Shown here piece by piece: positions 19,734 through 43,049 of a DNA stretch of 64,000 bases. Below the pieces are notes generated by a model. The model worked only from the letters and a program-made list of their open reading frames with translations, did not search any database and was not told the DNA's origin. The stretch is from Oryzias latipes. Taxonomy: Eukaryota > Chordata > Actinopteri > Beloniformes > Adrianichthyidae. How positions within the stretch are numbered: the first letter of the stretch is position 1; every line of letters starts with the position of its first letter. The stretch is taken from contig NC_019859.2 of the NCBI RefSeq assembly GCF_002234675.1, forward strand, positions 4,371,240 through 4,435,239. Direction: 5' to 3'. The translations under genes were made by a program, and so were the position numbers.

Positions 19734-22700
19734 TATGGAAGCAATTCTGTAGCATTAATAAAAAGCAAAGTCAAAACCAGAAATGCTTTTTCATTTTCAA
19801 AATGAAGCTGCATTTTTTGACTCAAAAATAAAATGAAAAAGCAATCCACCAAAATGCTTTTTCTTTTCCTTCCTCAACACAGCTTGTTCTGTCACTTAAT
19901 TAAAATTAAAATTAAAATGGTATTTGACATTTCATTTTCAAAACGTTCCATGGTAAATATGTAGCATAATTCATTTAGAAATGTTTAATTTGACATTTAA
20001 AATGGATTAATAGAAATGATTTTTAATTTTCAAAATGAAGCTGCATTTTTTGACTCAAAATTAAAAAGAAAAAGCAATACTTCAAAATGCTTTATCATTT
20101 CCTTCCTCAACCCAGCTTTTTCTGTCACTTAATTAAAATGATAAAGAAAATGGTATTTGACATTTCATTTTAAAAAAGGTCCATGGTAAATGTGTAGCAA
20201 AATTCATTTAGAAATGTCTAATTTGACAATTAAAATGGATTAACAGAAATACTTTTTAATTTTCAAAATGAAGCTGCATCAAATGCCTCAAAATTCAAAT
20301 GAAAAAGCAATATTTCAAAATGCTTTTTCATTTTATACTTAAAACCGCTTATTCTGTGTCATAATTAAAACGAAAATGCAAAGAGGGGATTGCATTTGCA
20401 TTTTAACATCCACCCTGCAAAACTTGGAGCAATATTCATTTAGAAAAAGCATTAGCAGAGGGGAGGCGGGGCGATGACGTCACTGCTTTCTCCGTGTGTC
20501 CGGCAGCTGTCGCTGAGAGACCTGGGGCCTCATTTATAAACGTTGCGTACGCACAAAAGAAGGCGTACGCCACTCTCTACGCAATAGTTGAGATTTATAA
20601 AAAGCAAACTTGACGGGAAAATGTGCGGTCCTCCACGCAAGCTCTGACCCAGGCGTACGCACAAAACGGGTGAAATGAGAAACGGCGACACCGTCGGCAG
20701 ATGGAAGAAACACGTGAAAGTGACAGTGTGTGCCACATCGTGCTGGGATGTGCTGTGCTACACAATGTGGCACAGCTTAAAAACGTGCCTCTACCCCCTG
20801 GCGCTGATTGCTGTGTTGGCCCCGACCCTGAACCCCATCCCCACGCATTTGAGCCATTTGCTGCTGCTGTGCGCCAGCGTTTGGAAGTGATGCGTCGCTT
20901 GTAAAGAAAAAGAGGTGTGGAAAATATTATTTATTTAAGAATTCCCTCATTGTGCAGTTTATTTCAGTCAGGGCGATCTTGATTTCGCCCAACTCCTTGG
21001 CCACCTCTCTGATTGAACTACTGACTTCCCTCTGCATTTCAAGGACTGCATCGGTGAGGACGCGTCCACTGCTGGAGGGTTGAGAGCCGCGTGCCGTGGA
21101 GACGCTGGGGCCAGACGGCTGCTCAGCTGCAGCATCGTAACCACTGGCCCCGCTGGAACACCCAGCAACTAAAATAAAATTGTTCTATATTAATAATCTG
21201 TAATTGTGTAGCCTGCATACATGTGACTTGACTGGATTCATTTTAATTATTTCTCTTACCTGTGTCACCCTGACCCTGGCGCGTCGGCGTCCCCTCCGTC
21301 TCAGTCAGGTGGAGGACGCCGATAAGGGGGACTTAATAGGGATTAATAGGGACTTAATAGGGATTCCCCAATAATAGCGGTCAGTTTCTCATCAAGAGGG
21401 GTCAGCTCCGGTCCCCCCACCCCCACCCCCCCACGTGGCGGACACACTCTGCCGATGCAGCGCTAGACGTTTTTTTGCCTCGACTTTGATGTCCGATCAT
21501 TTCTTTCATTTCTTTTTTATTTAACCACGGTCCGAGGTTGTGAGGCTGCAGCATTTACGGCGTCTGCCACCGTTTGCCGCTCACGTGCCTTTTTGGCATT
21601 AGTGATGCTCACACTGTGCCCTCCAAACAACACTTTTCTCCTCTTTTCCACCTCGCCAACGATAACTTCTACTTCACATTGAGTGAAGTTACGTTTTTTG
21701 ATTTCCCCTCTGTGTTTGCCATGATTTAGCAAGCCATGAATATTAATTTGTGGGCGTTTCACGGACTATTTATGGGCAACTATGGGCGTGTCATGTAGCC
21801 GCAAAAGCTGCGCTGCATTTAGAATCGGTTGTGATTTATAAAGGGAAAGATGCGTAGGATGTGCGTGCGCACGGTTTTATAACTCCGAATATTTCTGTGC
21901 GTACGCACGTCCTATGTTTCATCCGTACGCCACTTCTGACGCAAATCCTACGCAAAGTTTTATAAATGAGGCCCCTGGTGTGTCTGTGTTCGCATTAAGA
22001 TCACCTAAAACCGGGTCCTGTTCACAAACCGCTGGACCTGGACTGCTCAAACCTGGATTCCTGGATCTTAATGCGAAAAATGCAGCAGAATGTTCCTTTA
22101 GCTCCCTCGTGAATCAGAAGCTGTGAATCGCAACCAAACTTCTTCAGCGTCCCGTCTGACCGCACGGATTTAAAAACATATGATCGAGTAGAGCAGGCCC
22201 TTAATAATAATATTGACAGTAATAAAAGCACATTATGAAGATAGTCTCCTGCAGCTTCGCGCTGAGTGAGTGTTTTTGGTCCAACCAGCAACGTTTAGTA
22301 CGGTGAAATCTGCTATCTGTTGATGGGGCTCCAGCTGTCATCAAACAGCAAATTCAGCGCGAAGCTGCAAATAAATGTGTAAATATGTGGAAATTACATG
22401 AGTCTTTATTTTGTTCTGGACACCACTGGAAACACAAATTCATTTGATGGTTTCTCAGATCGCAGCAGCATTTCCGCCTTCAGCGATCATCGGAGCTTCG
22501 CGCTCCGCTGTGCGAAGGCAGCTGGCGGTCCGCAGAAAAAAGCTTGTCCGCGGTGCGTCAGGAGGAGGACCGCAGAAGGCGGACATGCTGCTATGTAGTC
22601 CTGAGAAGCTGTGGAAACTCATCAGAAGTTCACAACCAACTCAAAGCCGTCTTCTCTGCCGCTAACACAGTCTGCTCCTGGTGCGTCTGTGTGTGTCAGC

Positions 22701-23574: not shown

Positions 23575-26500
23575 GTAGGACAACATTTTAATTTTACTTC
23601 AAGTAGGAAACAAAATGGTGTTTATTTTGGGTTTTGGGAGAATACAGAATACACATTCAGAGCCAAAAAAACAAGTTTGATCTCGTTTTTCTGACCGTTC
23701 TACCTCTTTCTTGTGAAACAAAACAAAAAAAAAACACTTTCTTTAAGTGTTTCTATTTTGTGCCTTCTCAAAGAGGGAAAAAGGTGGTTATCTTCAAAAT
23801 TAGGAAATCCTACAATGGAGTCAGTGTAACGATTCCAGCACAGACAAAGCCACAAAGATTCGCTTTAGTTCTGGCGTTTTCATCTTACACTAAAGTTTAT
23901 TTTTCTAAAAGATCATCAAAGAAAACAAAATGATTGAAAATGTGTTTGTGTTCAAGTGAATCAGCTGTTTTTAAAATGTTTCCTGACTTTTTCAAATTAT
24001 TCTAAAAGTAACAATTCGTTTGCCAATGATTTGATTCATATCATAAGTTGTGGTTGTTCATCCGATTATTGATTTATTTTTGATGCTCCGCAAACAAACA
24101 AACAAGGATCAATGCCACATCCATTCACATTTTAATTCCTAAAGTTCAGCCCACTGTTGTTGTTGTTTTTTTCAAACAGAACATTAGACCTCATGTTATG
24201 GTCACATGTTTCCACACACTGGAATAAATGATTTATTTTATTTTTTAATAGTTTTATAAAAGTAAAGATCAATTCGATTAACAGCTTGCTTCAGACGGAT
24301 GGATCCGGTTTAGTTGTAGGAGTATAAATCAATTCACTGATTCATCGTTACACCCCTACTTATACGTAGGTAAGTCTTGCTTCAAAGAAGGAGGTGAAAA
24401 GTAACAGTTATATACAGACCACAAAATGACAACAAGAGACCGTCGACGGTAACTACAGCCATACATATCAGTCTGAAAACCCTCAGTTAAGAGTCCTTGC
24501 AGAGTTGAAGTCTGTGTGAAAAGCTTGAAAGATGTGTAAAAGTTTCAAATGAGCTGCTGTTTTCCTGAAAGGTTCAGAATAACTGGGTTTGTTTGGGAGG
24601 GTTCTATTGAAACCCAATCCTGACCTATAATTTCAGACTTTCATCATTAAAATAACCTTTAACTTTTTTTGGGGGCCTCAACTAATTTGACTAATTTGGT
24701 TTGGATGAAGCTAAATTCTGGGCTTTACACGCGCATTTAAGAAAAACACCGATTGTAAGTTCTTGTCCTCCACCATAACGGTGTTCACACTGAAGGAGCA
24801 GGGTGGGGCTTCCTCTTCTTTTTTTTTTACTATTTACTAGCTCATGTCCGCAACCTATAGCTGGAAGAGTCTTGGTGCAAAATGTCAAAGCGGTAAAATT
24901 CTCGCAAATATTGTTCCAAGCTTTTTATTCACAGCTCTATTCTGAGAATTGAAAGACTTGGATCATTTTGGCCGGACCCAAAACCACAATTGTAAAATGT
25001 CTCTGTAATGATTGATTTATCAAACAGTTGGCAGTTCGGTGAATTTAAAGCGATGCCATCCATTCATCCCTACATAATCTGAGTTCCTCATTAGTCAAAG
25101 GTCACCGGATTTAACTTTCAACGCGGGATGCCAGTTTTGTACGTAGAGCTGGAAAGCTGTTGTGAAAAGTTGCTTAGCTGTGTGTCAACGTGAAAGTTTT
25201 GAACGTGGAAGCCCGAAACGCGCGCTGATGTGCGTCTACATTGACCTTTCTTCGGAAGTTGTCACCTGAACGCGCGTTGCCAAGGGCGGTGTAAACAAAG
25301 CTTAAATAGTCTATATCATGCTTTTCTTACGACTTTCAGAGTAAACTTCATCCATATATATGATCATATATAACCTTTGGCACACTAAAAAGGAAATATG
25401 TTATTTCTGTGAGTACATTTACTACCCAGAAGTAAGACAAATGCATACCCGAGGCCGCGTGGCCGTGACGTCAACGTTAAAGGTCTGAGGTAGCCCATTT
25501 GGCTAACAGTTTAAAAAACAATAAATGGATTAACAAGTTTATGAAGTTTCATTTTTATTTGTGGTTGACATTTTTTGTTTTGTTATCTTAAAAATTCGAA
25601 CAAATTTACAGTTTAAATCTCATGCTATTGTGCATCATCACTGCGTTAGCACAGTTTTTTTTTAAGTAAAAAGAAAAAAAAGAATTAAAATGTTGCAATG
25701 CTTTAGCTCTGTTACAAAATCAAATTTCTAGGTACTGCTGCTTGTAGAAAAATTGGGAACTTACATGACTGTAACCTGAAGGAAATTGTAGTCTTAAAAA
25801 GGATTTGCTCGCTACCATTCATCAGGAAGTTCTCATGCAAGCATCTGAGTATTCACTCCTGTGAAAGAAAGTAGAAGCTATACAGACGAATAAATCCTTT
25901 AATAATACTCTCTAAGTCATTTGGTCTAAATTCTAACAAACCAAAACTCAGCCAGAGCCACAAAGTCCCAGTTAACCATTTAAAAAAATAATTTTGTGAA
26001 CATTAAACCATTTATTTATACTTAATTGTAGCTTTTGAGTATTAACAATAGTTAAAAGCAGCTAATTTAATTATTGTAAATAATTAAATAGGACTTAAAC
26101 CTGTCCCTCAGCCAGGACTTTAACCTGGCTGAGGGACCTGAAACAAAATCACCTTTCTGTGTGGAATTTGCCCGTTCTCCGAATGCATGCGTGGCTTCCT
26201 CCCACCGTCCAAAAACATGCTTTACAGTTTAACTGGTAGCTCTAAACTGTCCCTCGGTGTGATGTGAGTGTGTATGGGTATGTTATTGTGGCCCTGCGAC
26301 AGACTGGCGACCTGTCCAGGGTGCACCCTGCCTTCACCCACGAGTGGCTGTGTTAGGCTACGGCTGCCCTGTGACCCTAAAAAGGGAGAGAAAAAAAACA
26401 GGTTTCGAAGATGAATGACTGATTAAATCATATTTTATCATATCTACATTTATAAATAACATATTTACCTTCTTTTAGACACCGAGAAGGAGGGTTTAAG

Positions 26501-27162
26501 GACAGGGATGTCCAGTTAGCTTAGTCTGTTTAGTTTGGCAGTCAGAGATTGGATTTTATGTTTTTGTGCAATTATCAGTGTGAAGCTCATTAGGACAACT
26601 GTGTTGCGATATTGGACAATATAAATAAAATTGAACTGATTTTTCACAGCTGCATATGCAGAAGATCCTTTCAAAATAAAATACTCTCAAATAAAGCCTT
26701 CATGGTGCAAAGTTGTGCTTGAAGACAAACACCAAGAATCTGCACAACACTTTACAATTCAACCAACTCCTCAGACAAACATATCCCACTTCTTCTACCT
26801 AATACCCACTTTTTCAAATTAAGAGCTTTTTGATTAAATCGTAGGATTTTTTTTACCTTACCTTTTCCTATGTAGAGATTTTTTTCTCCATCTTTTCCAG
26901 TAATGCAATTTTTTTAGTTCCAAACTTGAATGTCTCGTTTTTAAACAACTGTTTCTATGTCTTCGTGGCTTGTGTGACATTAGTTAATTTCATTTTGATT
27001 CCACAGAAAAACTAGAAATAATTTACTTTTTGTGTTAGTTTTGTCATCATAGATTCTAGATTAAAGAAAACTTGCCACTGATTTTTTTTTAAACATCTAA
27101 CGGTTCAAATCACACTTGTTATAGTCAAATCAAATATTTCTTACCTTTCTTTTTAGTTGCAG
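23575..27162 (+). other. Integrin A intron 1
   Basis: No exon is seen. The first part matches unit B up to at least 23,999. An end of the hAT family found at 39449 (cgttacacccctac) lies at about 24,350. A fish dispersed repeat lies at 26,105-26,440. Otherwise the sequence is AT-rich and unremarkable. Confidence 0.6.
26105..26440. repeat. Teleost dispersed repeat (SINE/LINE 3'-tail type)
   Basis: Phrases such as cttcctcccaccgtccaaaa, acatgctttacag, and ggcgacctgtccagggtg mark a repeat found very widely in teleost genomes. This is assigned from general familiarity, not from a search. It lies in integrin A intron 1. Confidence 0.65.
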
Positions 27163-27539
27163 TCTTCCCGGGTTCTTTGGCTTTCAACATTGGAACAACA
27201 GATCCCAAAGTCTTTTCTGGAGAGAAGAATGATTTTTTTGGATATAAAGTGCTTCAGATGAAATCAGCTGAGAAGATGGGGTATGTTTTTATTCGCTGAA
27301 GACTTTCAGAAAGCCCTTTTTTAATGATCACTTGTGGTTCAACTAGACACACTACTCTCAATAAATTTGGGATATTGCTTTTCCGATGTGGTATGAATAT
27401 AAATCAAATGCATGAAAGCTACTTTTGATATTACTAATGGGAAGAAACTGCATTTTTAGTAGTTTGAGATGTATTACCCAAAAAATCAAGACAATATTAA
27501 AGGCAGCCCCAAGTAACAGAAACTGACCATGTCAAAAGA

Positions 27540-28830
27540 GGGTTTTCTGGCATTTCTTTCAATAACAGCTTGATAGGGACGTGTCCTGCTCCTCACTAAC
27601 CTCATGATGTTGCTCTGAGGCGTTCCACTCTTCCACAAGTTCTGCCAGGTCACTTGGAGGTGAGGTCAGATCATCCATTCTCTGCTTCAGCTGGTCCCAG
27701 GCCTGCTCTATGGGGTTCAGGTAAATGGAAAATGGCGTATACTTGTAGAGCGCTTTTCTACCTTCTTCAAAGGCCCAAAGCACTTTACAGTCCCATACAC
27801 ACATTCACCCATTCACACGCACTGGTGGGGGCTTCGCTGCCGAACACTGGCACCAACCTTCCACCAGAGGCAAGGTGGGGTTCAGTGTCTTGCCCAAGGA
27901 CACTTCGACACATTGGGGGGGCAAGGCAGTAATCAAATCTGGAATATTCCAATCAGAGTTCGACCGCCCCACCACTGTACCACAGCCGCCCGTCGGAGGT
28001 CATTGCTGGCTAAACCATATGAGTCACACCCAGTTCCAGATGTCCAGCTGTGACTATTCTGGTGGTGGAGCATTATCCTCCATGAATGAAAGTTGGGGTG
28101 AGCTGGTGGGATTGGGGGACAATGATGTTCCTGAGGTAAGAATGTGCACTGACTGGGCCATCAACAATAACCAAATGGGTTTTAGTCTGACTGGTGATGC
28201 CTGACTGTAGCACCTCCTCCACCAAAGCCAACTCTGGGGACCATGTTGACCTTGGCATGTTGGTCACCTCGCCTTCTCCAGCATCACTGACAACCATCAT
28301 TTCTGTGCAAAGTGACCCGACACTCATCAGTGAACTGGACAGTAGACCATTGCTGCTCTGTCCAGGTCACATGGTCTTCTTAAGATGTTCATGGGGATGT
28401 CTTGGTGTCAGTGAAGTCACCTGTAATAGCCATCTGGCATTCAAGTCAAAACGTCTGAGTCCAATGGTTTGTCTGGGAACCCTAGTACCCCTAACATCTG
28501 GTAAACGGACCTGCAGCTGTGTGGCGTTTGGTAAACCATGTCTTGAGTGATGAGGTCCTAATCGTCATGGTGGTGGTCTGTCAATGGTGAGGCTCCACTT
28601 CTGGTCTGTCAGAAACTTTGCCAGTAGTTCTGTGTCTTGATGCAAGGGTGCTGATGATACATTGAGACTCACCAAGTTCACCTAAAACATCTGACTGTCT
28701 ACTACCAACCAGAAGGCACACATGATGTTGTGTTTTCATGGTTGAATGATGATCTTGGAATGACTTGCTGCCAAAATCAGCTTTTTATACCCACAGAATC
28801 TTGGCATTGATGTCACATTGACAGTTTATT
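27540..28830 (-). mobile_element. Tc1-like transposon, degenerate, antisense
   Basis: Read on the minus strand from about 28,800 to 27,560, the pieces resemble a Tc1-type transposase. They include an N-terminal region with TTGKVSDRPEVEP, a central FTDESR-like part near 28,340, and the C-terminal LNPIEQAWDQLKQRM at about 27,720-27,680 (the D-D-E family ending). Frameshifts are many. It is interrupted by another repeat at 27,725-27,990. It lies in integrin A intron 2. Confidence 0.75.
27725..27990 (-). repeat. Fish dispersed repeat nested in the Tc1 remnant
   Basis: Contains gcccaaagcactttacag, cacattcacccattcac and cagtgtcttgcccaaggac, a short repeat very common in fish. A second copy in the other orientation lies at 32,500-32,660, sharing gaaggtagaaaaagcgct and the tatacgccattt end. 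Confidence 0.65.
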
Positions 28831-29893
28831 TTTATTTTTAACAGTATCGTGGTTTTGGCCCCGATAGGTAAGACACACTGTACACAATGAGACTAATATG
28901 TGGAAAACAGAAAACACAGTGTTTCTTTCACCCCAATTCCTCTTTATCTTGAAACTCTGTGAAGTGAAACACTGTGTTTACAACATTCCCCAAGTTTTTC
29001 CGCAATATCCCTAAATTATTGTGAGTATTGTAAGTTTTACGTCATGTGGCTAATATATGTAACCATATGTACTTTTCTTAACCTGATAGCTTAACTGTGA
29101 TCCACAGAATTATTATCACGGCACCTCTGAGCTTAAACAGATCCGGGAAAGTATGCAAATACAGCCACGAAGGAAAGTCAAGTTGCCAGACTTCCCAGGG
29201 TATGAACCTCTAACACTCTCAATCCCCGTAATCAAATAAAAAAAAACAAAAATACTTCAATAAAATGTAAATAGGGAGCATTTGATGAATGTGACTACAA
29301 AGCTTTTTTTTTCTAAATTTGTTCTGTCCAACAGCTGAGCAAACAGAAGAGACCTGAAGGTCTCTTGTGTTGGACATATTTTACTTTTACAATAGGGGTT
29401 ATGAATCTTCTGACACATGAGGTGTATATTTGTATATTTTGTATATGAAGCTAAACGTTTTTCTTATAAATGTAGCCAACCACAAAGCTTGTTGATTACC
29501 TTAATTTTACTTTGACAGAGTTTCTGGAATCAAACAGAACTGTGATCAAGCACTTGGGTTTGTCAATAGCTGCTAAACCCACTGGATCTGAGTTCACAGT
29601 AAGAGCTCCTCACATTCTGAGGGATCTTTAGGGGACATTCCAACTGGATTTCTCTTTCATCTTCTGTTATAGGTGTGCAGTCCAAGTGTTGTCCATGAAT
29701 GCTATGGGAACTCCTACCTCAACAGTTGGTGTTTTAGCATGAAAGATAATCTTTCCTCCATTTTTAAACCAGGTTTCCAAGGTGACAGAAATGGAAATGA
29801 CGTATTCTGTCCTGTCCATGTTTGCTCTGCTCTTAATCAAATGTGCTAAACCACATATTTTTTCCAGAGTGCACCAAGAATAAAGTAGACCTG

Positions 29894-31344
29894 GGGCCTC
29901 ATTTATAAACGTTGCGTACGCACAAAAGAAGGCGTACGCCACTCTCTACGCAATAGTTGAGATTTATAAAAAGCAAACTTGACGGGAAAATGTGCGGTCC
30001 TCCACGCAAGCTCTGACCCAGGCGTACGCACAAAAACGGGTGAAATGAGAAACGGCGACACCGTCGGCAGATGGAAGAAACACGTGAAAGTGACAGTGTG
30101 CGCCAAATCGTGCTGGCATGTGCTGTGCTACACAATGTGGCACAGCTTAAAAACGTGCCTCTACCCCCTGGCGCTGATTGCTGTGTTGGCTCCGACCCTG
30201 AACCCCATCCCCACGCATTTGAGCCAAACGCTGCTGCTGTGCGCCAGCGTTTGGAAGTGATGCGTCGCTTGTAAAGAAAAAGAGGTGTGGAAAGTATTAT
30301 TTATTTAAGAATTCCCTCATCGTGCAGTTTATTTCAGTCAGGGCGATCTTGATTTCGCCCAACTCCTTGGCCACCTCTCTGATTGAACTACTGACTTCCC
30401 TCTGCATTTCAAGGACTGCATCGGTGAGGACGCGTCCACTGCTGGAGGGTTGAGAGCCGCGTGCCGTGGAGACGCTGGGTCCAGACGGCTGCTCAGCTGC
30501 AGCATCGTAACCACTGGCCCCGCTGGAACACCCAGCAACTAAAATAAAATTGTTCTATATTAATAATCTGTAATTGTGTAGCCTGCATACATGTGACTTG
30601 ACTGCATTCATTTGAATTATTTCTCTTTCCTGTGTCACCCTGACCCTGGCGTGTCGGCGTCCCCTCCGTCTCAGTCAGGTGACTGAGGCGGAGGAGGACG
30701 CCGATAAGGGGGACTTAATAGGGATTCCCCAATAATAGCGGCCAGTTTCTCATCAAGAGGGGTCAGCTCCGGTCCCCCCCCCCCCCCCCCCCCCCCCCCA
30801 CCCGGCGGACACACTCTGCCGATGCAGCGCTAGACGTTTTTTTGCCTCGACTTTGATGTCCGATCATTTCTTTCATTTCTTTTTTATTTCGGCCACGGTC
30901 CGAGGTTGTGAGGCTACAGCATTTACGGCGTCTGCCACCGTTTGCCGCTCACGTGCCTTTTTGGCATTAGTAATGCCCACACTGTGCCCTCCAAACAACA
31001 TTCTTCTCCTCTTTTCCACCTCGCCAACGATAACTTCTACTTCACATTGAGTGAAGTTACGTTTTTTTGATTTCCTCTCTGTGTTTGCCATGATTTAGCA
31101 AGCCATGAATATTAATTTGTGGGCGTTTCACGGACTATTTATGGGCAACTATGGGCGTGTCATGTAGCCGCAAAAAGCTGCGCTGCATTTAGAATCGGTT
31201 GTGATTTATAAAGGGAAAGATGCGTAGGATGTGCGTGCGCACGGTTTAATAAATCCGAATATTTCTGTGCGTACGCACGTCCTACGTTTCATCCGTACGC
31301 CACTTCTGACGCAAATCCTACGCAAAGTTTTATAAATGAGGCCC
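29894..31344. mobile_element. PIF/Harbinger element, copy 2, inside the integrin I-domain exon
   Basis: A 1,451-bp element with the same ends as copy 1 and ctg target duplications at 29891-29893 and 31345-31347. Plus 30071-30274 encodes a transposase C-terminus (ACAVLHNVAQLKNVPLP). Minus 31091-30873 encodes the start of the Myb/SANT-like partner protein, and minus-strand sequence to about 30,340 encodes its C-terminal coiled part. Frameshifts and a Trp-to-stop change break the latter. A poly(C) run of more than 20 bases lies near 30,774-30,799. Reading from the integrin frame into the element gives a stop after four extra codons. Confidence 0.93.
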
Positions 31345-32499
31345 CTGGTCTTTCTGTTTGACGGCTCACGCAGCATGACTGAACAAGACTTTGAAAAAAA
31401 CAAAGATTTCATTGAGAGTATAATGAAAAGTTTACCCAACACAACAATCAAGGTCAGTAAAGCGCAGCAACATTTACAGATTAGTTTACATCAGTCACAT
31501 TGTTATCATCAGTAATGTGGATGTTTTATTACTCGTGCTTCAGTTTGCAGCAGTTCAGTTCTCCACCACCTTCAGGACAGTTTTTGACTTCAACGACCAC
31601 GCCGCAGGGAGAGCTATGGAGAAACTGAAGAAGGAAAAGCACATGATGGCACTCACTAACACATATGGAGCCCTTCAGTTTATCTTGTGAGTAACTTCAC
31701 AGCTAGTGAGAGAGCTGTTCAAACTTGATATTGTTGTGAAGTGAAAGCTACACAAAGCTTTCTGTGTGACGGGTGTCACTGATGTTGGTTCCAGAACTAA
31801 CCTGTTTGAAAACAAATCAGCGGGTGCCACCCCTAATGCAACTCAAGTTCTGGTTCTCATCACGGACGGAGATCCCAGTGATCCTTACAAGAATGCAAGT
31901 CTTAAAACATATGAGGAGAAGAACATCATTCGGTTTGTCATCGGGGTAAGTTATAAATAAAAAAATAGAAATGTGTGTTTATTGAATTAGTGGAGAAGCT
32001 GTTTGCTAAAATTTGTAGGAAACATTAACAGTCTAGTAAATGTGTGAGATTTATTGTCCTGAAGATATCAAATGTCTGACCCATTATGGTGTTTTGGCAA
32101 AGTTATCATTTCAGTGTTTTGGTTTTAGGTAAAAATTGACAGCATGGAGAAAATTAAACCCATTGCTTCAGAGCCAAAGGACAAAAATGTTTTTAAAATT
32201 GAGGACTATCAGGGCCTTGATGGGATTAAAAAAAACTTCCAAAATAAGATCTTCAACATGGAAGGTAGTTTTTTTTTTCATTATCTTTTTTATACCTTTT
32301 CTTCAAGTTTGTATCTGATCTTCCATCCTCCATCAGTAAGTAGTAAGTAACCCGGTGTGATCTTCTTCAGGGTCCAAAGCTGCTCTGGCAGGAGACTTAA
32401 CTAATGAAATGTCTCAGAGTGGATTCAGTGCTGCCTATCACGGGGTGAGTGATGCTAAATACTACCAGCACTTTTTAATGATTCCAAGAATACATCAAT

Positions 32500-32660
32500 G
32501 TTGAAGTATTTAGCATGAAAGGGCATGAAATGGGGTGCAGCCACCACGAGTGTGTGAATGTGTGCGTGCTTGGGTGAATGGGACTGTGACTGTAAAGCAT
32601 TTTGGGCCTTCGAGGAAGGTAGAAAAAGCGCTATACAAGTATACGCCATTTACCATATGA
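32500..32660 (+). repeat. Fish dispersed repeat in integrin A intron 10
   Basis: Same family as 27,725-27,990 in opposite orientation: gtgaatgtgtgcgtgcttgg, gcattttgggccttcgagg and the tatacgccatttaccat end. Confidence 0.6.
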
Positions 32661-34595
32661 CATTTTTTTTTCAAAAGGTAAAAACAGGCCTGAGCAACAC
32701 ACCTGTGCCATCAACTACAAGAGACAGAAAATAAAACACTTTACCATCAGAATTTTGATAATGGTTCTCGGTAAATCGCATACATGTAATATTGTATGTT
32801 CCACAGTTTATTCATCATTACCAGATTAGCATAAAAAAATTCATATCTAAACAGCTGGCCAAACCTACTTTATGATCACTCGTTACAACTGGAGGCAATG
32901 TGCAGTAAAAGTGTCTCAAGAAACAATAACTATCCAACCTGAGATGAGAGGTTTGTGTTTCCAAGTGGTTATTACCATTGACAGGACACCCTGGTCCTGG
33001 GCTCAGTGGGATCAAACAGCTGGCGTGGTTCTCTGGAAGAGCGTCATCATCAACATGAAAAACAGATTTCAGATCCAGACATGGAAATGGACTCCTACAT
33101 GGGTAAACTTTCCACAGGCTGCTTTGTGAATATGTGCCTGTTTGAAATCAGCTTAAATGTTTAATGTCAGTCTAACTTGATGGAAAATAATGCTGCAGGA
33201 TTCAGTTTATCCACTGGGGAGAGGAATGGAGTTCCTCTGTATTTCTCAGGCGCTCCCCGGTTTCAGCACACTGGACAGGTTGTGGTTTTCAATCGAACTG
33301 GAGAACGATGGATGGTACAGCAGAGACTAGAGGGGAGCAAGGAAACGCCATAAAATTATACCTACTGGAATTCAAATGGAGAAGGTGAAAATACTTGTGC
33401 TCGACAAATGACTTGATGCTGCTTGGAAAGTTTTCTGGAAAAAAAAAGTTCACTCACTTTCATGATTACTAAGAGGAAACCACTGAACTTCCTGGCAACA
33501 CCACAAACCTGAGCATTAACGGAAAACTTCAAAAAGCAGTTCAATTGCCTAAAACACCACTAATACAGACATTATATTCCTCAGGTTGGTTCCTATTTTG
33601 GCGCAGAGCTCTGCACTGTAGATATTGATTTGGATGATAGCACTGACTTTCTGTTGGTGGGAGCTCCAATGTTTTACGAGCCTCTACAAAAAACAGAGGG
33701 AAAAGTCTATGTCTACACTCTGACTGATCAGGTGGGTCATCGTGAGACTGAAAGAGTCAGCATTATTGACACACTGATTTAGAAACAGAGGACATATTTG
33801 ATTCCTGTAGATGCAACTGGAAATGAAGCTGAACGTGACGGCTCCATCCATGGGGAGATTTGGCACCACCCTATCCAGTCTTGCTGATCTGAATGGAGAT
33901 GGACTCCGAGATGTAGCAGTTGGGGCCCCTCTGGAAGACGATAACCATGGAGCCGTGTACATATACCTCGGAGATCGAAAACGTGGGATACGCCACACCT
34001 TCAGCCAGGTGACAAAAAGACTGAGTCTGAAACATCTACTTAAGCAAATGGATCAATGCTTTGATTTTGTTTTCAATCCTCTATTTTAGTTTAATCTTCA
34101 GGGGACAAACACAAACAAATTCAGAGAAACGTTTAAAGGGAATGGAACAGAAATTCAGTAAAACTGAGTTGATGAGAGGTCTTGCAATGCACAGCAAACA
34201 GTCCAGGATACCTCACCCTTCTTCAGCTGTGTTGGCACCAGCATCTGTGACCCACAATCAAAAGAAGGCAGTTTTAGACAATGGATAGATGGCTGCATTT
34301 AAAAACATTAGGTTACTTTCAATGTGAAACTAAAAGATTCCAGATGAACTGGCTCCTATGTGGATTTAACGCAAAGACCTTGGGCTCCTGCTTAGATTTC
34401 CAGCAGGACTCATTATTACCTCAGTCTATAGCAGAGACTCCCCCTGGTATGAAAGGTCTGTAATGCCCCTCCAGCGCTCACATTATTTCCTAGTTCAATT
34501 GCCCGTATCCTACTTCTATACTGTAGATGCAAAGAAAAACCTCTAATAGCAACGTCTTTTTAGGACAGAAAAAATCTGAATCAAAAATATGAATA

Positions 34596-35455
<860 letters not shown>

Positions 35456-36059
35456 TCAGTATATATTTTTATGTAAAAAATGTCATAAAGATGAAAAAGG
35501 TTCTCTTTATGTTTTAGAGAATCAGTGGAAAGAGTTTTGAACCTGCAATGAAGCTGTTTGGGCTAGCCATTGATGGACATGGAGACCTTGGAAACGATGG
35601 GCTTCCAGACATTGTGATTGGATCACAGGGAGCTGCTGTTGTTTTAAGGTATGCCTATAGTGAACTCTGTATGTGATTCCTGTATGCATGGTTTTTTAGG
35701 GTTAATACTTGATCATTAACTTTTTTGTAAAGATACATTTAAATATATTTTTTTAAACATTTTTTTTGTTAGACATCAAACTAGCATCACAGCTGACCAT
35801 TAGGAATGTCGAGGAAACAATCCTCCAGACAGACAGTGTGACACTTGGATTTCTTAGAAAAATAACACTAAATTGACAATCATGCTCAAAGTGCTCAGTG
35901 TGCTGTGTGTGTGTGTACTAAATGTAAAAGTGCCAATGTGTCAATTGGTCAAACTTTTTAATATCAACTTAAGTCAGGGTTCTGTGGTACATCTCAAGCA
36001 GTGGCTTGCCCTCCCATTAATACTAGATAGTTCACAAGTCCTCAGCCTCTTTCCCTGCG

Positions 36060-36870
36060 GCTAGCATACAGTCTTAGGTTGCTGGTATGTATCGCGAAGA
36101 GCTTTTCGTGTCGACAGCTCTTCGCTGGGGACAGAGCAACTCCTGGGTATATGTCACATTTCATGGACATCAAAAGTGTTTTTTCACAACCTCATTGAGT
36201 TTCTTATGAAGGATTTTAGAAACCTGTTGAAGTTTTACAGCTCCAAGTATTCAGCGATCCATGTGTATGGCATTAAGTCATAGGCTTTTTTGTAATCAAT
36301 TCAGGCAATACACAGGTTGGTAAGTCATGACTTGCAGTCTTCAGTGGCTGTTCTGTCAATAAGGAGTTGGTGTTTGACTCCTCTGGTATCTCCACCAATG
36401 CTCTTCTGTTCTACTCATGTATAGATCCATGTGCCCAATTATTTTGGTTGCAATGATGCATAAGGGATCCTTCTGGATCAAGATAGTTCCCTCTTCCGTT
36501 AGCCATTCGGGGCTAGTCCCATCTTTTGGCAGCTGGTTCAGTTGTGTTGCCAGGCGCTCATGCAGTGCAATGAGTTGAGCCAGCCTTTAACCAGTGGGTG
36601 TGTATCATGTCAGGGCTCAGTGCTGTCCAGTTTTTCATGCGTGAGGATCTCTCTTGGAGGTCTGCCACTGTGGTGATCACAAGTTTCTGTCCTCAGATGT
36701 TCATCCCTCAGAAAGACAAGTTCTGGTTGGGAGTTTGATACAGCCCCTATGCTGGCCTGGTGTTCTGGTTCTCCTATTTGAGTTGCATTTGAGTTGTACC
36801 TCTTCAATCTGAAGTTGTGGTATCAGTTGCCATTTGTGGATTTTGGAACGTTAAGCTACCAGTTGCTTTG
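36060..36870 (-). mobile_element. R4/Dong-like non-LTR retrotransposon fragment, antisense
   Basis: Minus-strand translation in shifting frames gives DMIHTHWLKA, ERLATQLNQLP, PEWLTEEGTILIQKDP and, further on, IDYKKAYD. This is the look of the reverse transcriptase of R4/Dong-type elements. Many frameshifts make it an old copy. It lies in integrin A intron 15. Confidence 0.65.
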
Positions 36871-39448
36871 CAGTAAACCTTGTGGATTTCAAAGCAAACT
36901 GTTTCTATATGTAATCTGATCAGGATTATTTGAGTAGTCGCATTCCAACAGAACCAACACACTGGATTATTTTATTGTTTATTGCCCCCCTGGGAATTGA
37001 ATCCTGATTTCCAATGTGCTATCCATACTTTTTTTTATCTTTTTTATTTTCTTTATGTTCCAATCAATCTATATGTATCGTAGATGTTTTGTCTTGTTTT
37101 TGTTGTTGTTGTTGTGATTGCTTGACTTAAACCAATTGTACAATTTTCCTTCATGGGATGTGTTCCAGCTCCAAGCCAGTCTATAATGTTGCAGCTTCCG
37201 TGTCATTCCATCCTGAAATGATAAGTATCGAGAAAATCGACTGCGTGAGCAATGCCCATGAAGTTCTTCCCATGGTCAACCTAACAACGTGCTTTGAGTT
37301 GAAAGAGGCAACAAAGAGCGTAACAGGTAGAAGAACCAGACTCAGAAATGAAATATATTTTAAAAAATGGCTGAAAATAATATGATTTTTGGACCTGCTG
37401 TATGTATTTGTAGAAAAAGCTAACTCCGCCATAAGAATCCTTCTCAGCATGGATTTGATGAAACAAACCCATCGAGGATTCTTCAATCCAACTTATAATA
37501 AAACCAAGAGTCTTCACATGCACTGCAACTTAACCACACAAGTGACATGTTTCAACCATTCAGTCTACTTGCCGGTATGCCATTTTATATAATACTGCCT
37601 TTCTAAACTTTCTCAAGTATGTCCACACTGGTTTAAACTCCTCTTTTTGTCTGCAGAAATGTGTAAAAGACACTCTATCCCCTATCAGCGTTAAGTTAAG
37701 CTTCTCCCAGCCTGATAATGACAACGCAAGTGCTGTCCTAAACGTGGACAGTAAGAAGGAGGCCATTTTTGAGGTGTGTACTCTGAAAAATGTAACAATT
37801 TGTAACGGTGGGTCATGCCTTAAAAAAGCTAAAAAGGATACATTTGTCAAAAGATGTTGGAACAAGTGGGGTAATGTTAAGCCAGGTCGGATTCATTTTC
37901 TTATTCTAACCTTGAATTTTTACTGACAAAAATCCAACAAAACATTGAGCAAAATTAAAAGGATATTACAACTATGTAAAGGTTTTTATAAAACTTAGTA
38001 AACTTAAAGAAATGTCATTAATTATGGGAGCTTTTTTTTATTTGTTTCTAAAGAACTGTACCAAATGGATCAGAGAAAAAGTTGCGTTCATGTGTTTCTT
38101 CACCTCACTAGAATAAACACTAATTATAATCAGAAACATGTATTCATTTTGAGGCTTTTAATCATCCTGGTTAACAACAGTGTTGACTTGTGTCGACCTT
38201 CAGTGTTTACATTCTTTCGACTACCATTACTCATTTATGCAGTTAATGTCATTCCAGAGGATCCTGAAGTGGAGAAAAGCCAGCTTGCACTGATACACAA
38301 CACTTATCGTAGTGAAGTTTTTATGCAATCAATACAAATTAGCCAAACTTGTCACAGAGAAAAGGTTAGCACCAGAATCAGCTAATTCCCATTGACCATG
38401 TCAAACAGTCTGAGAGTTGTAGATGTCAAGAGCGTGTGTTATTTAGGTATCTCCTGTGACATCTCTGGTGTTGAAGGGTTAAGATCAGGGTTGTGGCAGT
38501 AATAAGTAGCACAAAATGAATAGTGTTTTTCTTTTTTTAACAGATTCCATTTGAGAAACAATGCAAAAATAATGACACTTGCATTGCTGAACTGGATGTA
38601 GATTTCAACTTCATGTAAGTATATTCAACATACACGGAACAGCCATTCTGCCACTGTCTCTGACTAGATGCTCTTTCAATCTACAAGGACGCCAACGCTG
38701 TTGGTGTCCGACCAGAGTTACTTCAACGTTTCCATAGTACTGGTCAATAAAGGGGACGACTCATACAACACCAGCCTCACTGTGCTCCACTCTCCTGGCC
38801 TTTCCTTTTCCAGTATGAATGTCACAAAGGTGATTCAAACTTTCTGTCTATGAACAGGGTCATTCTTAAGAGTTTTTGGCAGCAGCATTGATCCATCAAA
38901 AAAACTGTCACAAATATATATGTAAAGGGTTTGAACTCAGCCTTTTTCTTTCCTTTAAAAGGCCACAAGACAAACTTTGTATGAGTGCTATGATCTGAAA
39001 GAAGTGCGTGACAGAACTCAGTGTGGCATCAGCCGTCCTGTGTACCGCAGCGGCTCCAAGGTTAGTTCCAATAGGCATGTTGACACCATTCCTAAAACGA
39101 GTCAAAACCAGCAGTTTCTCCAGTGTGTTTGATTCGGGCTTGTTTAGGGCTAACATCAGCATCTCTTGTGTCCATCAAGGCAACATTCCAGTCGTCTTTC
39201 CATGTCATTAAGGATATTGATTGGAATGACACAATGACAATGACCGTCTTTGGCAAAAGGTATGCACGTGAGCTAATACGTTTCGGTTCATTGCCAAAGT
39301 ATTTTTTGTAATGGAGACAACTGTGTGTCCACAGTGATAACACAAACTCCAGCACGATTGATTCTGTGACCAAAACCATTAAGGTACAATATGAAATCAG
39401 GATGGTGATCGCAGTGTAAGTTTTCCTTTTCTTATCAACTGTTTAAAT

Positions 39449-40146
39449 TAGGGGTGAAACAATCAATTGATCATTTGATGAATTGATTTATCCAACCAGA
39501 TCAATCTGTCTGCGGCAAGGTGTGATTCAAATCAAACTATTCCATTATAAAACTGTTTCAAAATGAAATAAATTTATTATGGAAAATACCATTTGAATTG
39601 AGGTGCGGTAGGTTTTATTTTACTTTAAACTAAAAATGACGAAGTGACATGGACTGTAATGATGAACATTTTTTTCTGCCATCACAGCGAACAATACACA
39701 CATGATGACAGCAAAATATCATCAACCATCATTCCAGTTCAACTTGTGGAAACTCTTTGAATTTAGCAAAGACGTGACCATGCAGTGTGGTAGAATGTTC
39801 TATATTACATTTGGATTATTTAATTTGAAAAAACAACAGTAAAACAACTTTATGAAATGTGAATGGATTTGCCCAAACTTCTTGTCTACTTGTTTGTTTT
39901 CACGCATATTAAATTTACACTTCATTGTTTTGAATAAATACAGAGAATCTGCAAAACTTTATCTGCACTGTTCAGTAGCCAGGTATTTATCTCTGAGTCA
40001 CACTGTTTGAATTTTTGGCAAAAGATGTCCTGGATCCATTTTAGGTAAGAGAAAAGGATTGAACCAATATTGACAATAAATTGTATAATCAAACCCAAAT
40101 TATAATATTAATTGAATTGTTGTTATAATGAATCGTTACACCCCTA
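39449..40146. mobile_element. hAT-type element of 698 bp with perfect 8-bp target duplication
   Basis: Ends taggggtgaaacaatca and tgaatcgttacacccctA are near-perfect inverses. The 8-base sequence gtttaaat stands directly outside both ends (39441-39448 and 40147-40154). No transposase frame is seen. Relatives are present as fragments at about 24,350 and 1,950-2,175. It lies in integrin A intron 23. Confidence 0.8.
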
Positions 40147-40344
40147 GTTTAAATATTTCACAAAATTTCACAAAAACAGATCCTGTTAGTTATTGAATGT
40201 TTACAAAAGAATTTTGTCAAACCGAGTCTTCTTTCATAGAAAAGAGGACAGTGTCTCCTACCTGAACTTCACAACAAAGGATACAAAACCCAAAAAAATG
40301 GTCATTACTTACCAGGTGAGACACCAGCAGCATCCTTCCCTCTG

Positions 40345-40946
40345 AAGGCCATGTCACATAGCCACAATGTACATTTTGCACGGATGAAAACTGGTCATAC
40401 GTGAATATAGGTGGAAAAAGTAAAAAAAGTTGTGGTCTGTACGTGAAATTTTTACAAATGTATCACAAATGAACCACGTCAACTACAGAAGAAGTCAGAC
40501 TAAACCATGAGAAGATCACATTAATTAACATAGAACATGAACCGTGTGTGACTATTGTGGCATTTATATTCAAAGAATTGGTGATTTGTGCGTCATTTAT
40601 GTAATTTGAACGTGATATGTGCGATGGTAAATGCGTGAAAAGTCTGTTAGACATATGTGGAACGGTCGTGGAAAGCCACATATGCATCTTGCAAAAATCA
40701 CACACAATTGTGGAAAGTTTACACAATAATTGCATATAAACTACGTTACATATAAACTGCGTAATTCTCAACCTTCCATAAATTTTGAACAGCTCCAAAT
40801 CGAATTCACATAAAGAACCGTAGCTCTGAAACCCTTGATGGACATCTATGCACACCGAACGCAAAAAACACTTGTGAATTACGTATGTCACACATGTATC
40901 CTTTCATACGTGGAAAATGTATGTTGTAGCTGTGTGACATGGCCTT
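40345..40946. mobile_element. MITE of about 600 bp with 35-base inverted ends
   Basis: The left end aaggccatgtcacatagc mirrors the right end gctgtgtgacatggcctt, and similarity continues inward (tacattttgcac versus gtggaaaatgta). A related copy ends at 45,250. The superfamily is not clear. It lies in integrin A intron 24. Confidence 0.75.
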
Positions 40947-43049
40947 GAAACAGGAAATCAATGTGTGCATGATCTGACAGTGCTCTCATCTGTTACAGAT
41001 AGATAATACTGGTTTCAAGGAGTTTCCGGTCAATGTGTCGCTGCACTTCCCAACACAAGTCAAATACAACTTTGAATTAATCAACTTTCAAGTTTTAGTT
41101 CATAAAGTACGTAGACAAATCGTAAAAAGAGGCTTTCATACGATTGTTTTTCTGGTCATACTATAAGATATTAACATATCTTTTCCTTCAGAACAAAACC
41201 CAGTGCTCTAGTGCTCCCCATCTAAAATCTGAGGTGAGTAAAAAGCATTAGAATAAACTAAACATTCGGACTTCTTCAGTAAGACATCAGTTTGCTTTGT
41301 TTCAGCACTGTTCACCGGACATGGAATGCATCATCACACAGTGCAACAGTTTCAGTCTGAAAAAACACTCTACCGCTGTCTTCAGGCTGGAGGCAGACGT
41401 GCATTTTAGAGACATTCGTCATTATGCAGAGGTTCGTACTATAGCAACTAGAAACAGGAAAAACAAGGCAGCGTTCTCAATGGGTGTTCTGTTACTTGAC
41501 AGATGTTTTCTGGCTTTACTGGAGGCAGCACAGACATCCGATTCAAGAGTTTGATACACGTCGATACCGACAGGAGGCGCTATGTGCTGGCTTCTTACAA
41601 TGAGGTACGAGGAAGTGTGACGCAACCTCACCGATCCTTCATCCATTCATTTTTCGATCTTCTGTATTGAACACAGAAAAGCTCTGAGAAGATCAAGCTT
41701 TTGAAGAACGGCCAACACACTGAAAACGATCCAACAACGAAATGGGTATGCAAACATCCAAATGAGTACAGAGACTCCAAAGAACAATCGCTTACAGCTT
41801 TTCTGCTTTAACAGAGCGAAGTTCGAGTTGAGATCAGCGTTTCCCCCAACCAGTGGTTGATCATTGGAACTGGAGCAGGAGGGGGATTGCTGCTTCTCAT
41901 CATCATAACAATCATCTTGTGTAAAGTAAGAGTTGCCAGTGAAGTCGTTGCTCTGTCATGGTGTGAAAGCTCCATAGAAGTGTCCCTTCTAAATACCTGG
42001 CTCAGGTGATTACAAATTCTGATAGATTCAAAAAGATCTAGATCAAGCACAGAGGTATCTCTTGAGAAACACCAGTGTCATCCAGCATTTCATTCTTTTA
42101 ATTGTCTTTTAAATGGTATTAAATGTAGATTAACAAACCGTTGAATGTGGGGATGAATGACTCATTCGGTCCTTGGGGGGGTGGACAAATTAGAGAACCT
42201 CAGCAGTTTATTGAGTTAACACAAACATTTATAACTGTCCTATAGCTTCATTTTGGGAGCTTTAGGCTGACCAGGTTACCAAAACCCACTGAAAATAAGG
42301 TTTTAGTGTTTGGTCTTATGCTGCTTTCCATGTCTGTTACAAGCTGGGCTACTTCAAGAGGAAAAACCCGCCGGTGGACGAAGAAGAGGAAGGAGTAGTC
42401 TTCATCTTCCCCACGGAACAACACACTAATGGAACAGTTGGTAAATCAGAAGACGGAGGCGATTCGGATCGAGTTCTCGAGGAACAACAGTCTCTTCCCG
42501 AGAACAACGGAGACCCTCAACAAGAAGACCAGCCATAGGACCAGGATTCAGCTTAAACATTCAGCCTCACAGCTGCCTGAAACTATCCTGACATCTCGTA
42601 AGGAATATAGAGAAAAATCTGGAAGAATCACCAAAAGAGTTTTTTCTGTTAAAAAGCAAAACTATGAAACCAGGTCAAGAGTTTGATGACCCAAAATAAA
42701 AAATAAATGATAAAACTGATGATGCAGATACTTTTGATCAGATTTGCTACAAACTTTGCCCAGAACTGTCTCTAGTGAAGAAAAGTACTTTTTTATTTCT
42801 GAACCTATAATAAATTCAGTGTTTAAATCATAATCCAGTTCAAACAGTTCCCCGAACGGAGATCAAATGGCAAACAGGAAAGAACCGAATAAATCTGAAT
42901 CGGGAGGACCCAAAGAGCAGAAAACGGTCCTGCTGTGAGCATGTTCTGTTTTAAGGAACGCGTTATGAAAATCTTACTAAAATGATTTACAGGTCTATGT
43001 AACTTTGTATTGTTGAGCCATGTCCAATGTGAAGTGTTCTAAAATAACC

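Follow-up and report, generated by a model that had tools for sequence, protein, structure and literature searches.

The window analysed here is a stretch of 64,000 nucleotides of the medaka genome (C1:4371240-4435239), and the genome searched comprised 734,051,031 bases in 25 contigs. It holds an integrin alpha gene with an I domain (copy A; Table 1), of which 30 exons, exons 2-31, could be modelled by an exon walk on splice signals and reading frame. The translation matched the Pfam families VWA (PF00092, 1.3e-34), FG-GAP, Integrin_A_Ig_1, Integrin_A_Ig_2 and ITGAX-like_Ig_3, has the VWA domain with its DxSxS...T...D site between the propeller blades, and contains a hydrophobic stretch and a GYFKR tail that resembles GFFKR. 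Among PDB chains the top match was integrin alpha-L (1.7e-90, 307 bits), followed by alpha-X (3.8e-81, 276 bits), alpha-M (273 bits) and alpha-E (225 bits). The DGSRS, TNTY and ITDG motifs of copy A, which we take to include the metal-binding residues of the DxSxS...T...D site, line up with alpha-L in the PDB match alignment, and the I domain is encoded by exons 6-9. Copy A shares domain order, the VDLVFLFDGS strand, the MIDAS and the GYFKR tail with alpha-L (CD11a, LFA-1 alpha) and with alpha-X, alpha-M and alpha-E, whereas it differs from alpha-L in being the broken member of a fish duplicate pair; the alpha-L assignment is made by best PDB score. Another integrin alpha gene, located on the minus strand at C9:5766001-5786000 and with a piece resembling the end of an I domain, is more distant (23-57% identity over pieces with E < 0.5).

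Table 1. Features of the locus, in window coordinates unless extended window coordinates are indicated
Feature	Coordinates	Strand	Basis
Copy A, alpha-L-like integrin alpha gene with an I domain (exons 2-31)	27157..42538	+	splice signals and frame, Pfam, PDB match
Exon 6 (131 nt of host sequence), interrupted by the element; first of the I-domain exons, with the DGSRS MIDAS motif	29868..31452	+	
Left CTG target-site duplication	29891..29893	+	sequence read, family flanks
Non-autonomous PIF/Harbinger-type element, 1,451 bp	29894..31344	.	TIRs, CTG TSD, genome-wide copies
Probable transposase C-terminal remnant, 63 aa, remainder missing	30083..30275	+	translation
Element Myb-like (ORF1) gene, open start, 72 codons then stop	30876..31091	-	Pfam Myb_DNA-bind_5 (PF13873) 3.7e-12, translation
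Right CTG target-site duplication	31345..31347	+	sequence read, family flanks
Exons 7-9, remaining I domain, open	31544..32264	+	exon walk, comparison with copy B
Exon 12 (FG-GAP exon)	33199..33341	+	exon walk, comparison with copy B
Exon-12 donor lesion, GA versus GT in copy B	33342..33343	+	splice comparison
Unit A of the duplication	about 2980-49158, extended window coordinates (about 46 kb)		piecewise matches
Unit B of the duplication	51469 to beyond 88760, extended window coordinates; C1 to at least 4460000		piecewise matches

The integrin gene and its surroundings are held in a tandem segmental duplication whose two units match in pieces, 81-98% identical by piece. The exons of the second gene, copy B, were found at C1:4440649-4444574 by a genome search with the protein from I domain to propeller, in which 92 of 147 candidates were scored. 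Copy B starts just beyond the window end, with its exon 2 at 2.7 kb and its I-domain exon at 5.4 kb, and over exons 2-31 it keeps an open frame with GT at 29 of 29 donors and AG at 30 of 30 acceptors. The acceptors of copy A are likewise all AG (30 of 30), while its donors comprise 28 GT and one GA. That A and B are separate loci is evident from differences in their introns. The TAG stop of copy A (42536-42538) lies a few codons before the stop of copy B, which has CAG at that place. Two scans, covering 24000-27150 and the corresponding stretch of copy B, detected no exon 1 (expected to encode the signal peptide) in either copy; since the duplication extends further upstream, this exon may sit there. 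An additional small exon suggested by eye between exons 2 and 3 was rejected because the frame is maintained without it.

Exon 6 of copy A, whose splice sites can be read directly (acceptor ...ttttttccag ahead of 29868, donor gtcagt following 31452), consists of 26 host bases, the element of 1,451 bp, the repeated CTG and 105 further bases of the host. Reading from the exon into the element gives V-D-L-G-P-H-L-stop, and the 147 residues counted from exon 2 to this new stop end before every MIDAS residue. Once the element and one CTG are taken out, the exon measures 131 nt and reads VDLVFLFDGSRS, its flanks rejoin VDL to VFLFDGSRS, and the result matches the strand VDLVFLFDGS of the PDB alpha-L chain in the alignment. 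The corresponding exon of copy B is uninterrupted and has a single CTG (...GTAGACCTGGTCTTTCTGTTTGAC... / ...GTAGACCTGGTCTTTCTG...); it is the natural empty site for the element. The sequence-only reading of this DNA had put a Harbinger-type element inside the MIDAS exon of the integrin I domain, with the frame from VDL to VFLFDGSRS kept on removal of the element and one CTG, and with a stop four codons into the element. Its placement is borne out by the exact boundaries, the CTG on both sides and the empty site in copy B, which also displays the predicted single-CTG form; GPHL-stop is read directly, and the class of the element agrees with its terminal inverted repeats (TIRs), CTG target-site duplication (TSD), Myb-like frame and copies across the genome. 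Among the papers listed by literature searches on the gene, the insertion and medaka variation, no title or abstract opening dealt with this insertion, and a term search of the main text of the MIKK-panel genome paper returned neither 'integrin' nor 'Harbinger'.

The element ends in 16-bp perfect inverted repeats (GGGCCTCATTTATAAA), which an inverted-repeat listing gives as a 23-nt arm pair, 96% complementary, with flank included, and it contains a poly-C run at 30774-30799. Besides the Myb-like gene it encodes a 63-aa piece that matches no Pfam or NCBIfam family at E values up to 1 and that we assume, from a motif and from its place in the element, to be the C-terminus of a transposase; relatives of this piece occurred in frames of 67-85 aa and none longer among the 150 scored of 282 genome candidates. 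With 40 of 1,514 candidates scored, searching the genome with the element gave at least 57 match rows, including at least 35 other near-full-length places with 96-98% identity. The 31-bp left end with CWG has 671 exact occurrences in the genome, against 0 for the reversed control, and the family is one of high-copy, internally deleted elements. A second copy in the window (20525-21974) is 95.9% identical, has CTG on both sides and is judged older by its 22 private differences; no counterpart was found in unit B as far as extended coordinate 88760, and its empty site, sought in unit B, gave no match.

The 3-bp TSD, short TIRs, Myb-like gene, target preference reaching past the TSD and amplified internally deleted copies are all features that this family has in common with known PIF/Harbinger systems such as zebrafish Harbinger3_DR with its non-autonomous Harbinger3N_DR, and rice mPing/Ping. 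The medaka family, which belongs to this genome, is set apart by a CWG duplication and by having only a short presumed transposase remnant; the target of Harbinger3_DR is 17 bp with CWG. Passages in PMC9710019 describe a 3-bp TSD as typical of PIF elements, with TIRs of about 15 bp, and passages there and in PMC2836001 describe a preference for target sequence outside the TSD as well.

Such a preference is also evident in medaka. Our target analysis drew on 35 copies from elsewhere in the genome plus the two in the window; one (L021) was dropped for an inexact TIR (n = 36). Identical 3-bp flanks were present in 26 of the 36 copies (CTG 18, CAG 6, TTA 1, TTG 1) and non-identical flanks in 10, some copies abutting another family member, and the commonest letters around the 26 insertions, unsymmetrised, were AGAC-CTG-GTCT. 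A symmetrised matrix was then built on 23 of these 26, leaving out both window copies and one (L010) that abuts another element. On this matrix the exon 6 site, with 14.1 bits, outscored every other position of the 3,515-nt CDS, where the runner-up reached 10.5. Within the 99-kb region (97,291 positions) it was one of the top three: the sole higher score was 15.0 at extended coordinate 83559, and the tie was the identical copy B site. The place of the insertion in exon 6 is sufficiently explained by the element's own target preference, and its closeness to the MIDAS is a coincidence of codons, with nothing special about the MIDAS itself. The exact empty 14-mer target TAGACCTGGTCTTT occurs 6 times in the genome, copy B site included, against 27 for a reversed control that is not palindromic in like manner; the difference could reflect target occupation or merely palindrome effects, and no conclusion was drawn from it. 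A wider proposal, which we consider unlikely, is that the codons of the conserved first VWA/I-domain strand (D-L-V-F, GACCTGGTCTTT), which spell the family target, would make I-domain genes recurrent insertion hotspots in fish, with copy A being a segregating null leukocyte-integrin allele, its insert precisely losable, in a standard laboratory fish.

Compared with the majority letters of the 36 copies, the element in exon 6 differs at 16 of 1,443 positions, and 7 of these differences are private, being absent from the other 35 copies; two lie beside the poly-C run. Noncoding sequence of A and B differs at 237 of 4,058 positions (5.8%; 21 stretches of 26500-33584), a count summed by hand in which one position may have been entered twice. 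The earlier suggestion that the loss is recent fits this comparison of 7 private bases in 1,443 with 5.8%: as the divergence amounts to about 2.9% per copy, against 0.35-0.49% for the element, the insertion would fall, with wide error, in roughly the last sixth of the time since the duplication or the last conversion between the copies. Coding sequence gave dS 0.058, dN 0.020 and dN/dS 0.34, a ratio taken over changes in both copies together, which would fit a gene that selection maintained through most of its history. Noncoding divergence between the copies was uneven, with 24 of 855 positions differing in 29200-32128 and 213 of 3,203 elsewhere in 26500-33584 (Fisher 7.7e-6, boundaries picked post hoc); gene conversion across the ligand-binding domain may possibly account for this patch. 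Further patches of low divergence lie at 26500-26799 and 27600-27899.

The rest of the gene had also been described as in frame, and this proved right for the exons, which are open, but not for the splice signals, because the donor of exon 12 is GA in copy A and GT in copy B. It is the only non-GT among the 29 donors of copy A, and reading past it meets an in-frame TAA three codons on (33351-33353). GA-AG introns are described in passages of PMC7072748 as frequent in two invertebrates and as used efficiently in human FGFR genes, so the change is likely, though without certainty, to be harmful; in copy A the donor is probably nonfunctional.

Taken together, the data point to a redundant alpha-L-like duplicate that recently became a pseudogene, with copy A lost in this genome and copy B surviving, a reading to which we give a probability of roughly 85%. 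According to this model, a tandem segmental duplication would have produced two alpha-L-like integrin genes, and a non-autonomous PIF/Harbinger element would have entered the left one, presumably through mobilisation in trans, integrating at its preferred palindromic target (AGACC-WGG-TCT core) with duplication of CWG. This target happens to be spelled by the D-L-V-F codons of the first I-domain strand, and the resulting stop after four residues makes full-length copy A protein no longer possible. As the stop lies upstream of 25 exon junctions in the exon model, degradation of the transcript would be expected. Separately, the exon-12 donor of copy A is GA in place of GT. Copy A is thus probably null in this animal.

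Whether splicing could circumvent the lesions depends on the acceptors and exon phases available. Splice rescue inside the element was rejected, since none of the tested element AG acceptors (at least 50% pyrimidines in the preceding 20 bases), combined with four upstream donors, opens a frame into VFLFDGSRS. In-frame skips around the insertion exist, among others those of exons 6-9 (187 aa, the I domain) and 5-6 (80 aa), as does one for the GA donor (exons 11-12, 87 aa) and one that removes both lesions (exons 5-12, 335 aa), and a shortened copy A protein made by such skips is conceivable from the exon phases. It seems nevertheless very improbable that copy A survives through exon skipping as an I-domain-less or otherwise shortened integrin, the insertion altering the gene rather than killing it. 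Exons 6-9 do form a phase-symmetrical block whose loss preserves the frame, integrins without an I domain exist, and the A-B dN/dS of 0.34 would be in keeping with this reading; but after that skip the exon-12 GA donor would still have to be bypassed, the skip of exons 5-12, which would drop both lesions, also deletes propeller exons, several exons would need to be skipped in concert, and the same dN/dS is equally expected from a loss that is merely recent.

Still less credible is an assembly artefact, whether an error or a collapse of the tandem copies, as the source of the element or the GA base at this locus. Tandem copies more than 90% identical are difficult to assemble, and the element contains a poly-C run, but a misjoin would not bring together at one place a precise CTG duplication, full TIRs and the family target motif, and the intron differences keep loci A and B apart. 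This argument protects the single GA base less well than the insertion.

Pseudogenisation of copy A is also compatible with a third possibility, which adds polymorphism to it: the insertion may segregate or be confined to particular strains, with copy A uninterrupted in other medaka strains, and the element could still excise precisely, PIF/Harbinger excision usually taking one TSD copy along. We regard this as a real possibility, if somewhat short of an even chance. The low private divergence of the element would suit such an allele, and according to passages in PMC9179366 Harbinger coverage in medaka exceeds that of every other species compared, with expression in gonads. Excision in the PIF/Harbinger superfamily is described in passages of PMC2836001 as usually precise, so that the insertion alone could revert; against a full restoration of copy A, the GA donor would persist after the element had left. 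Either lesion could be specific to a strain, or the GA base a base-calling error, one genome having been examined.

Given an intact twin (exons 2-31) next to it, the loss of copy A would be the loss of a spare copy; copy B probably covers the function, and nothing in the data indicates that the receptor is missing from the animal. The process is an ordinary and known one, while the anatomy of the locus is neat and well documented. Exonic transposon insertions knock out redundant duplicate genes, and copy A follows the same logic to the same outcome; unlike in such cases generally, a single locus displays the target motif, the twin's empty site and, separately, a splice lesion. Copies A and B together show cleanly how the site of an exonic Harbinger insertion looked before the event and after it, and studies of the medaka alpha-L-like integrin must specify the tandem copy to which they refer. 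Should copy A be null only in the reference strain, it would constitute a natural knock-out of one LFA-1-like duplicate, which would allow leukocyte adhesion to be compared between strains.
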